Program-made: the position numbers and the translations under genes
Origin: Pseudonocardia autotrophica
Lineage (GTDB): Bacteria > Actinomycetota > Actinomycetes > Mycobacteriales > Pseudonocardiaceae
Length of the DNA: 64,000 nucleotides
Reading direction: 5' to 3'
Assembly (NCBI RefSeq): GCF_003945385.1
Contig: NZ_AP018920.1
Coordinates: 5,890,001 to 5,954,000 of the forward strand
Shown here: piece after piece, positions 25,401 through 28,157 of the stretch
How positions within the stretch are numbered: the stretch's first letter is position 1
Layout: every line of letters begins with the position of its first letter
The notes under the pieces: model-generated
The model's input: only the letters and a program-made list of their open reading frames with translations
Told to the model about the DNA's origin: nothing
Databases searched by the model: none

Positions 25401-28157
25401 CGGGGCGTCCTGGAACGCGAGCGCGTCCAGCCCGGCCGTACGCACGCGGGCGAGGAGCTCCCGGAACGACGGGTCGCCGCCGGCGTCGGTGCGCACCACG
25501 ACGGTGTTGAGGAACAGGCCGACCACGTCGGTGGCGTCGGCGCCGCGCTCGATGACGGGCACGCCGAGCGGGAGATCGTCACCGGCCCCCATCCGGTGCA
25601 GCAGCGCGGCGACCGCGGCGTGCAGCACCAGGAACGAGGTGGTGCCGGTGCCGGCGGCGAGCTGCTGCACCGCGGCGGTGAGCGTGTCGTCCACGGTGAA
25701 CGGGACCACCGCGCCGCGATGGCTCTCCACCGCGGGCCGGGGCAGGTCGGCCGGCAGGGTGGTCTCGGCGGGTGCCCCGTCGAGGACGGTGCGCCAGTGC
25801 CCGAGCGCGGCGTGCGCGCGCGACGCCGGATCGGCCGGGTCGCCGAAGCGGGCCGCCGCGGACGCGACGGCGTCGATGTAGCCGGGGGCCGGTGGCAGCG
25901 CCGGCGGTCCGCCCGCGAGGCGGGCGGTGTAGGCGGCGGCGAGGTCGTCGACCAGCACGGCGAGCGCCCGGTCGTCGACCGCGACGTGGTGCAGCACCAG
26001 CGCGAACAGGTGCTGATCGGTTCCGGTGCGCAGCAGCGCGGCCCGCCACGGCAGCTCGGTGGCCAGGTCGAACGGGGTGGCCGCCAGCTCCCGGACGGCG
26101 TCCCGGGCGGCACCGGTCCCGGCGGTCTCGCGCAGCGGCAGCTCCGGTGCGGCGACCGCGGCGGCGGGCAGCACCTGCTGCCACGGCTCGCCGCCGTCGT
26201 CGGGGAGCAGGGTGCGCAGTGCCTCGTGCCGGGCGACGACGTCGCCGAGCGCGACGCGCAGCGCTGCGGTGTCCAGCGGGCCGGTGAGCTGCACGGTCAG
26301 TGGCACCGCGTAGCTCGCGTCGGCCTCGATCCGCTGCAACGACCAGATCCGGCGCTGGGCCGGCGAGAGCGGGGGCCGGTCCGGGCGGGGCATCGGGCCC
26401 GGGGTGGCGGTGGCGGGCCGGGCGGGTCGTTCGGCGGGCAGCAGGGCCGCGATCTCCCGGACGGTCGGCCGGTCGAACACCGCCTGCACGGTCAGCCCGG
26501 GGATGTCGGCGCCGGCATCCGCGCCCAGCTCCTCCCGCAGCCGTGCGACCAGCCAGAGCACCTGCAGCGAGTGCCCGCCGGCGGCGAACAGGTCGGTGTC
26601 GGCGTCGACCGCCGACGGATCGGTCTCCAGCAGCTCGGCGACCAGGGCGATCACCTGCCGCTCCCGGTCGGCGCGCGGGACGGCGGCCCCGGACGGCCCG
26701 TCGGCGGCCGGCACAGACGGCACAGACGGCACCGCTGCACCCGGTACCGGCTCCCCGAGTGCCCGGTGCGGATCGGCGGCGGCCTCGGCGAGCAGCGCGA
26801 GCAGCACGTCCCGGTGCGACTCGACCTCCTCGGGGGTGTACCGGGCGGCGTCGGCGTCGACCCGGATCACCAGCCGGGGCGCGTCCCCGGAGCGCAGCCG
26901 GGCGGTGACCATCAGGTCGCGCACCGGGCCGGTGGCGATCTCGTGCACCTCGCCGGTGGCGTCGCCGAGCCGGACCCGGCCGGGATCGGGCTTGACGTTC
27001 ACCACCAGCGCCGGGGCGGGCTCGCGTCCGGCCCGGGCGCGCACCGCCCGGCGCAGGTCCTCGCCGCGGTAGCGGCGGTGTGCCGCGGCCGCGCGCAGCT
27101 CGTCGTGCACCCGGGCGACGAGCCCGGCCGGGGTCGCCGACGGGCCGGTCCGGACCCGCAGCGGCAGCACGGTGACCGCGGTCGTGGGGACCCGGCTCGC
27201 CGGGGTCCCGAGCCGCTGCATCGCCGGGAGATCGAGTACGACGTCCGCGGCCCCGGTGTGCCGCCACACCAGCGCGGCCACCGCGGCCGCGACGATCTCC
27301 ACCGAGCCGGCCCCGGCGGCCTGCGCGGTCTCCCGCAGCGCCGCGGTGGACGTCGCGTCGAGCTCGCCATCGGCCCGGTGCAGCTCGCGGGCCGGGGCCG
27401 GGTTCGCGGCCGGTGCCGCCGCGAGGGTGGCGGGCACGGCGCCGTCGAGCCGTCCGGTCCAGAACTCCTCGGCCGCGGCCCGGCCCGGATCGGTGAGATC
27501 GGCCGCGTCGGCCTCGACGACGGCGGCGAGCTCGCCGTAGCGGGCGGCGGGCGGACCGGCGGGCGCGGCGGCGGCAGAACCGGCGGGGCCGGCAACCGGG
27601 CCGGCGGGCGCGGCCGCGACAGAGTCGGCAGACGAGCCGGTGGCAGTACCGCCGGCAGGGCCGGCCGTCGCCCGGTACAGCTCGACGACCCGGCGGCGGA
27701 GCAGGTTGTAGCCGTAGGCGTCGAGCAGCAGGTGATGGGCGCGCACGTACCAGAGGTGGTGCTGCGATCCGAGCACCAGCAACGCCTGGCGCAGCAGCGG
27801 TTCGCTGTGCGGGTCGAGCGGACGCCGTACGTCGGCGCCGGTCCAGGCCGCGGCGGCCACCGCCGGGTCGTCGTGGCCGGTGAGATCGACCAGCTCGCAA
27901 CCGGCCGGCCAGCTCCCGGGGTGCTGGACGACCCGCCCGCCGTCGAGGGTCTCGAACCGGGCGCCCAGCCACGGCGCCTCGCCGGCCGCCGACGCCGCCG
28001 CGGCCCGCAGCGCGTCCGCGTCGAGTGAACCGCGCAACTCGACCTGCTCGGCCGTGACGAACGCCGGGTTCGCCGGGTCCCGCTGCTGGTCCACCCAGAT
28101 GCCGGTCTGGGCGGCGGTCAGCGGCAGCGCGAGCGAGGTCGGGACGCGTGCGGACAT
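7443..28157 (-). CDS. Nonribosomal peptide synthetase, C-T plus five modules, 6904 aa
   Basis: The first assembly-line protein, likely for a peptide siderophore. Approximate residue landmarks: starter-like C with HHLLLDAYG (about 150); T with GGHSLQ (528) and no A domain between them; C with HHVAVDD (722); A (1207), code D-I-L-Q-M-G-L-I-W = Gly; T GGDSIAA (1582) with no [12 protein letters not shown] (1815); A (2310), code D-T-W-T-V-A-S-V-D, not assignable; T (2685); C HHAAGDEG (2880); A (3360), code D-I-L-Q-L-G-M-V-W = Gly; T (3740); C HHVAADES (3950); A (4433), code D-V-Y-V-V-G-A-V-N, not assignable; T GGDSIVS (4828); E (5010); [10 protein letters not shown] (5500); A (5972), code D-V-F-S-V-A-A-V-Y, piperazate-like prefix only; T (6357); E (6545). 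The acidic end ([10 protein letters not shown]) after the last E resembles a COM donor for the next protein. The ATG is preceded by AGGAG. The promoter holds an iron box 60 bp upstream, so induction by iron limitation is expected. Codes were read by eye against GrsA positions. Confidence 0.96.
16333..16386. repeat. Hexanucleotide microsatellite in the NRPS gene (nine GTGTCG-type units)
   Basis: Eight GTGTCG units and one GCGTCG unit in tandem. On the coding strand they encode alternating Asp-Thr/Asp-Ala, just before the HHVAADES motif of the fourth module's C domain. Six-base units keep the reading frame whatever the copy number. Confidence 0.95.
22544..22633. repeat. 15-bp tandem repeat, six units, in an NRPS C domain
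   Basis: Six consecutive 15-bp units of the form (T/G)G(T/C)C-GG-x-C-x-CGGCTG. They encode an Ala/Glu/Asp/Thr/Gly-rich insert next to the [10 protein letters not shown] motif of the C domain that follows the first Gly module. They are in frame and probably form a surface loop. Confidence 0.88.

Follow-up and report, generated by a model that had tools for sequence, protein, structure and literature searches.

In EntF, the C (condensation) domain takes up an aryl group delivered in trans by a carrier, and the starter C domains of RzmA and CDA use acyl-CoA or acyl-ACP. Siderophore pathways of the rhodochelin and qinichelin type are reportedly spread over several loci. One report places further rhodochelin genes outside its cluster (PMC5550956), and another counts 21 metallophore regions whose chelator genes lie at other places in the genome (PMC12971057). 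C-T units devoid of an adenylation (A) domain are on record too: according to a third source, the A-less module of CmnI and VioI (capreomycin, viomycin) relies on an A domain that sits in a different module, and the loading of CmnI by CmnA-A1 is a tested cross-module precedent (PMC12400406). Neither A-less modules nor split siderophore pathways are therefore without precedent. The NRPS1 assembly line of the Pseudonocardia genome considered here resembles CmnI/VioI in having an A-less C-T unit (C1-T0), a candidate partner A domain elsewhere in the line and an MbtH-like protein in the cluster. However, CmnI is a separate internal module whereas C1-T0 opens its line with a starter-type C domain, and NRPS1 has relatives with the A domain that reveal what was probably lost. 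C1 belongs to the starter C clade of EntF and MxcG, but while EntF and the readable relatives carry their own A domain after the C domain, that of NRPS1 is gone. As in rhodochelin- and qinichelin-type pathways, precursor genes lie away from the NRPS, yet here the set for 2,3-dihydroxybenzoate (DHB) comes in complementary halves at two loci, one of them with an ArCP-SIP fusion. Among the matches listed from the open-licence literature, none describes ArCP-SIP fusions or DHB initiation modules that lack an A domain.

The window, by which we mean the whole 64-kb stretch that was analysed (C1:5890001-5954000, C1 here being the contig), belongs to a 7.5-Mb genome in two contigs. It holds NRPS1, probably a giant enzyme with which this soil bacterium makes an iron-scavenging molecule, together with the features in Table 1. 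NRPS2 is followed, on the same strand and left of the window, by NRPS3 (C-A-T-C-A-T-C-A-T with a TE-like end, the TE recognised by eye).

Table 1. Features of the window discussed in the text, with the basis of each assignment
Feature	Position	Strand	Description	Basis
NRPS1	7443..28157	-	6904 aa; C1-T0 / C2-A1-T1 / C3-A2-T2 / C4-A3-T3 / C5-A4-T4-E / C6-A5-T5-E	translation, domain HMMs
C1	26754..28124	-	starter condensation domain, residues 12-468, HHLLLDAYG at 141	Pfam, tree, NCBIfam, Foldseek
Linker	26601..26753	-	51 residues, Pro/Ala-rich, at the A0 position of relatives	domain HMMs
T0	26412..26600	-	residues 520-582, intact GGHSLQ	Pfam, domain HMMs
C2	25086..26372	-	LCL type	domain HMMs, tree
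A1	23502..24965	-	code DILQMGLIW	domain HMMs, specificity-code extraction
A5	9189..10661	-	code DVFSVAAVY; proposed T0 loader	domain HMMs, genome search, code
T5	8946..9107	-	carrier adjoining A5	domain HMMs
NRPS2	1..7443	-	C-A-T-E-C-A-T-E; start overlaps NRPS1 stop; runs on left of the window	
Iron-box-like site	28217..28235	.	14/19 to TWAGGTWAGSCTWACCTWA	
Second iron-box-like site	28274..28292	.	14/19; between NRPS1 and multicopper oxidase	
Flavin reductase	30460..31341	-	siderophore-interacting	
Two ABC transporter proteins	31265..35840	-	membrane and ATPase parts fused (export-type)	
Two FecCD permeases and ABC ATPase	35716..38692	-	ferric siderophore uptake type	
MbtH-like protein	38696..38962	-		

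The initial annotation had claimed that NRPS1 starts with a C-T unit without an A domain, and translation, Pfam and domain HMMs built from the line's own domains all bear this out. GGHSLQ starts at residue 527 and the next A core (TSGSTG) appears only at 1204. A Pfam search of the first 686 residues (window 26100-28157) returned Condensation (5.3e-49) and PP-binding (1.3e-11); AMP-binding families were absent even at E values as high as 1. A hidden A domain between C1 and T0 is ruled out by Pfam, by the domain HMMs and by the gap between them, since the 51 residues from the end of C1 to the start of T0 are too few to conceal one. The two catalytic histidines of C1 and the serine of T0 are in place, so nothing visibly marks either domain as inactive. 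T0 has an 8-residue insert relative to other T domains; a structure model is good for C1 and poor for T0, for which the alignment had no T rows. It could be argued that the missing domain reflects an error of assembly or the decay of the gene, with a recent in-frame deletion, the more so as no second genome with an A-less start like that of NRPS1 was found among the loci and genomes searched. However, the join is in frame, the linker is kept, translation reveals no stop or frameshift in the NRPS1 frame, and C1 and T0 resemble the remainder of the gene in codon-position GC, the linker being slightly lower at third positions (0.88 versus 0.93-0.96). Moreover, the contig measures 7.2 Mb and elsewhere the 20.7-kb gene has an open frame and its domains, so that an error or decay of this kind appears very improbable.

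In two other genomes of the genus, C1 and T0 are separated by an A domain, A0. One is Pseudonocardia sp. TRM90224 (G049, contig NZ_JAJGSX010000024.1); in the other, G101, C1, A0, T0, C2, A1 and T1 lie in three different frames, which is probably due to errors in the draft. C1, C2, A1, C3 and A2 of NRPS1 each find their best match in the G049 counterpart (37, 50, 54, 50 and 58% identity). Downstream, A3 of NRPS1 best matches G049 A1, A4 matches G049 A3, A5 matches G049 A4 and C4 matches G049 C5, the order being offset by one because NRPS1 has one extra Gly-coded module. The G049 line shares with NRPS1 the succession C1, C2-A1 (Gly code) and C3 (DCL)-A2 (DTWTVASID against DTWTVASVD), a DVFSVAAVY module ahead of an E domain, and genes for MbtH, GNAT, a binding protein and ArCP-SIP. 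It differs in that A0 is present, in that ArCP-SIP adjoins the NRPS (102 bases upstream), and in the number of A domains (7 in the stretch read versus 10); no PanD was found in G049. More broadly, an A domain directly follows the starter C in 23 of 24 loci of named genomes, G049 included and one A being split over two frames, while the 24th gave no readable layout. These loci came from a scan with a two-row C1 alignment; an earlier scan of named genomes with NRPS1 C1-T0 as the sole query had yielded 83 stretches and no relative. Eighteen further loci of the genus include 16 with a starter-type C in one frame, all 16 with an A domain next, the remaining two (G101 and L103) being without a usable reading in that survey. 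Given A0 in the relatives and the A domain after C in 23 of the 24 loci, A0 was probably lost in the NRPS1 lineage rather than absent from the outset.

When the C1 of the genome under study (G000) was compared with 24 genomes, a set outside which G101 falls, G049 came first (2.1e-33, the next at 6.1e-22). In the genus-wide ranking, whose model was built with G049 and G000 and gives them their top places by construction, the next-best match after the three is G011 (1.5e-52, versus 5.2e-55 for the better G101 piece), and its layout differs (Cst-A-T-DCL-A-T-E). T0 is 40% identical to its counterpart in either relative, versus 59% between G101 and G049. For the other domains the identities of NRPS1 to G101 versus G101 to G049 are 39 versus 44 (C1), 53 versus 61 (C2), 58 versus 62 (A1) and 64 versus 70% (T1), making T0 the most diverged of the five compared against this pair. 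Such divergence fits a new partner or a loosened constraint equally, and it could also mean decay.

It is possible that T0 receives no amino acid and that DHB travels via the T0 thiol, or past T0, onto the glycine of module 1. The divergence of T0 would suit this relay, as would the plausibility of DHB-Gly starts: three Actinokineospora relatives have the layout Cst-A(Gly code)-T, and a first tree, without G101, set NRPS1 C1 beside the C domains of these Actinokineospora lines (92/92). However, adding G101 moves C1 to a position sister to the C1 domains of G049 and G101 (92/84), with Actinokineospora joining next (90/83), a placement that is only fair in view of the first tree. An earlier idea drawn from the Actinokineospora grouping, that C1 takes glycine, was dropped once C1 had moved. 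In the first and larger tree C2 is sister to the C2 of G049, whose donor is an aminoacyl chain (100/99), a pairing not resolved in the second, smaller tree. Since T0 retains its serine and C1 its histidines, and since an A domain with an A0-identical code is at hand, a relay seems unlikely, and it looks less likely than loading of T0 by another module.

Which module this might be is suggested by the specificity codes, extracted at nine positions that we take to be the relevant ones; the labels hfOrn, Gly and Thr attached to such codes are likewise our assumption, as is the Gly-like reading of the A1 code. The code of A0 is DVFSACIVY in G049 and DVFSVAAVY in G101. That of A5 agrees with the latter at 9/9 and with the former at 6/9 positions, and A4 of G049 has this same code. 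Over the whole domain, A5 is also the best NRPS1 match to A0 of G101 (437 versus 355-370 bits). Searched against the entire genome, with matches taken at E up to 1e-40, A0 of G049 again finds A5 first (56% identity, 384 bits; the next at 339). Thus, the specificity lost at position 1 seems to have been kept in the same polypeptide, and by code only the A domain with the same specificity for the A-less module would be A5. Six specificity-code strings gave no match in the literature searched. On this sequence comparison we consider it reasonably probable that T0 is loaded by another module of the same line, A5 most likely rather than A1. Against A5 stands the dissimilarity of the two carriers that it would then serve, T0 being of the GGHS type with an insert and T5 of the GGDS type.

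The case for A1 deserves a place nonetheless. A1 is the nearest A domain to T0, and by loading both T0 and T1 it would give DHB-Gly-Gly. G010, G052, G045 and G025, four further genomes of the genus, each have an internal A-less C-T unit immediately ahead of an LCL-A(Gly code)-T module, so that a Gly-coded module comes next after every one of the five A-less units observed. In mannopeptimycin synthesis a single A domain serves two consecutive T domains (PMC8949500). However, A0 has no Gly code in either homolog, and double duty of A1 strikes us as rather improbable.

The initial annotation had instead envisaged either a relay, with T0 holding an acyl starter, or a free-standing A domain that loads T0 in trans, with its gene to be sought left of the window. 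Loading in trans is known, from SyrB1 for SyrE and from the stand-alone A-T modules of ramoplanin (PMC8949500), and with 93 PF00501 matches in the genome a trans partner, be it free-standing or an A domain of another cluster, could exist. Against this stands the quality of the matches: the best short stand-alone frames reach 185 (40%) and 152 bits (37%) to A0 of G049, versus 384 for A5, and at E up to 1e-40 the genome holds no free-standing A gene related to the missing A0. None lies beside the cluster either, as the sole free-standing PF00501 protein in the left flank (genome 5850001-5890000) is acyl-CoA-ligase-like, with 129 bits to the A model. The flank scan and the genome search with A0 together rule out a free-standing A gene left of the window and, as far as this genome goes, NRPS1 is not a free-standing-A system. 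We regard a trans loader of either kind as improbable.

What C1 condenses onto T0 is a separate question, and the initial annotation was right that this unit decides the cap. C1 is of the EntF-like starter type: in both trees it clusters with EntF C1 (100/100) and away from the LCL, DCL and E domains, while RzmA and CDA sequences are absent from these trees, which therefore do not separate aryl from acyl starters. Its best NCBIfam partial matches are MxcG (269 bits) and EntF (141 bits), both whole-protein models and both far below their cut-offs. These affinities argue against a CoA- or ACP-bound acyl starter, as in rhizomide or CDA, in place of DHB. Such a starter would be in keeping with the structural comparisons: RzmA-Cs is the best PDB match by sequence and by fold with CDA-C1 close behind by fold, Foldseek ranks 1-22 are taken by ObiF1 and the starter C domains of RzmA and CDA, and the closest solved relatives by sequence are RzmA, ObiF1, EntF and CDA. 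The gene neighbours point the other way. A ligase-like ORF lies upstream in 13 of the 24 loci with a C1 relative (none upstream in 11), and in all 8 of those 13 that were tested the best family is DHB-AMP ligase, although only 2/8 exceed its cut-off. In addition, the G049 homolog adjoins an aryl carrier. An acyl starter is thus improbable, and C1 is very likely an aryl starter by its sequence and that of its relatives. No aryl-AMP ligase with aryl carrier was found beside the NRPS1 cluster, the candidates being at 2.49 and 6.58 Mb. Given the starter type, the ligases of relatives, the fusion in G049 and the scattered set, DHB on an aryl carrier is the likely donor, and we infer a cap that is likely DHB from scattered genes, which makes NRPS1 probably part of a line for a catechol siderophore, with dispersed genes for the cap.

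The two loci together hold one DHB set, with no NRPS at either. That at 2.49 Mb encodes an MbtH, the genome's only strong Lys/Orn monooxygenase, an isochorismate synthase, an isochorismatase and ArCP-SIP, in which an aryl carrier is joined to a domain resembling siderophore reductases; that at 6.58 Mb encodes an ArCP, EntE-like and EntA-like proteins, a reductase and transporter genes. Candidates thus exist for EntC, an EntB-type isochorismatase, EntA, EntE and ArCP. The EntE-like (654.7 against a cut-off of 723.55) and EntA-like proteins (288.1 against 300) fall just below their NCBI equivalog cut-offs, the EntC candidate is above the subfamily and below the DhbC equivalog cut-off, the isochorismatase at 2.49 Mb matched only generic NCBI models, and the PP-binding part of ArCP-SIP is weak in Pfam (23.2 versus 20.8). 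A further isochorismate synthase is encoded at 6.37 Mb, and for two other aryl-ligase/ArCP sets in the genome a carrier and NRPS modules are no more than about 20 kb away. Full-length ArCP-SIP occurs in 2 of 62 genomes of the genus, both among the 3 with this start, an overlap with a chance of 0.0016 for a group of three that was drawn after data inspection; none was found in G101, a genome 78% complete. Iron-box-like sites, scored against a consensus that we take to be TWAGGTWAGSCTWACCTWA, accompany the DHB loci (15/19 at 6.58 Mb and a weak 13/19 at 2.49 Mb) as they do NRPS1, and 20 random 64-kb sequences contained no site scoring 14 or more. The scores under the NCBI cut-offs and the weak site at 2.49 Mb are the soft points of the DHB reading.

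It is appealing to propose, with a probability of about 0.5, that C1-T0 is a DHB initiation module without an A domain of its own, whose T0 is loaded elsewhere in the line, most likely by A5. The enzymes of the 2.49- and 6.58-Mb loci would synthesise and activate DHB, which an aryl carrier would present to C1 in trans. An A domain from a different module, most likely A5 of the same polypeptide, would supply the amino acid on T0, C1 would couple DHB to it, and C2 would pass the DHB-aminoacyl unit to the T1 residue, probably glycine. A more tentative extension is that A0 was shed because a domain of the same specificity five modules downstream serves T0, by a long-range interaction across the 6900-residue protein, and that DHB arrives on the carrier fused to a degenerate siderophore reductase. 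The loss of A0 and borrowing from a downstream module may make NRPS1 an uncommon variation on an established assembly-line scheme. Should A5 serve T0, the product predicted by collinearity rules would be off by one residue, and lines with and without A0 constitute a natural before-and-after experiment on the loss and replacement of an A domain. Since the DHB genes are far off on the chromosome, genome mining of single clusters would miss the DHB cap.

Two other ideas about the start of NRPS1 were set aside. Left of the window lie genes for a binding protein, PanD, a hydrolase, a formyltransferase and GNAT. A formyl-hydroxyornithine cap (exochelin-like) was rejected, since the candidate module, N3A2 (code DINYWGGIG), sits in NRPS3 and not at the start, so that formyl does not account for the start of NRPS1. 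PanD occurs three times in the genome, twice adjoining siderophore NRPSs, and beta-alanine on T0 was discarded because no code in the line can be linked to it. The four lines with internal A-less units may resemble heterobactin, and five A-less units in one genus suggest that loss of the A domain is not a one-off in these lines.

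The siderophore-interacting (SIP) domain is joined to an aryl carrier protein in a single protein, the ArCP-SIP fusion, which is found at full length in 2 of the 62 genomes of the genus and in which the FAD part of the SIP domain matches only positions 71-118 of the 120 of the Pfam model. The siderophore reductase at the 6.58-Mb locus (L037) seems to be shared by two overlapping frames, and a frameshift possibly underlies the split. Against the model for DHB-AMP ligase, the free-standing AMP-binding protein scores weakly, at 172 bits; it is also absent from the A-domain matches of a genome-wide search (E up to 1e-40) with A0 of the colinear NRPS of Pseudonocardia sp. 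TRM90224 (G049). The multicopper oxidase gene and NRPS1 form a divergent pair, with both iron-box-like sites lying in between.

Internal A-less modules occur in four other genomes of the genus, in lines that may be heterobactin-like. In each, the A-less DCL-T module comes after an E domain and before an LCL-A(Gly code)-T module, an A domain with the code DMENMGLIN comes next, and in two of the four lines the site of the missing A domain holds repetitive linkers. In NRPS1, T1 leads directly to a DCL-type C domain. No E domain intervenes, yet the module holding T1 is Gly-coded, so the line may have lost an E domain here. Siderophore NRPS genes adjoin two of the three aspartate decarboxylase genes of the genome, a hint that beta-alanine may be among the building blocks.

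Coordinates of the features discussed
Feature	Location	Strand	Remark
ArCP-SIP fusion, this genome	L036 (2.49-Mb locus):13790-14707 = genome C1:2497790-2498707	+	Pfam
ArCP-SIP fusion, G049	L018:234-1157	+	
Multicopper oxidase	window 28335-30449	+	
Free-standing AMP-binding protein	window 58488-61235	+	~30 kb right of NRPS1
Siderophore reductase	L037:12089-12957, genome 6.586 Mb	-	FAD part by Pfam; C-terminal part by eye
Internal A-less DCL-T module	L020 (G010), L095 (G052), L097 (G045), L099 (G025)		
Aspartate decarboxylase genes	genome C1:5876180, 4798845, 6767099		
T1 of NRPS1	window 23268-23432		GGDS type
DCL-type C domain after T1	window 21771-23084
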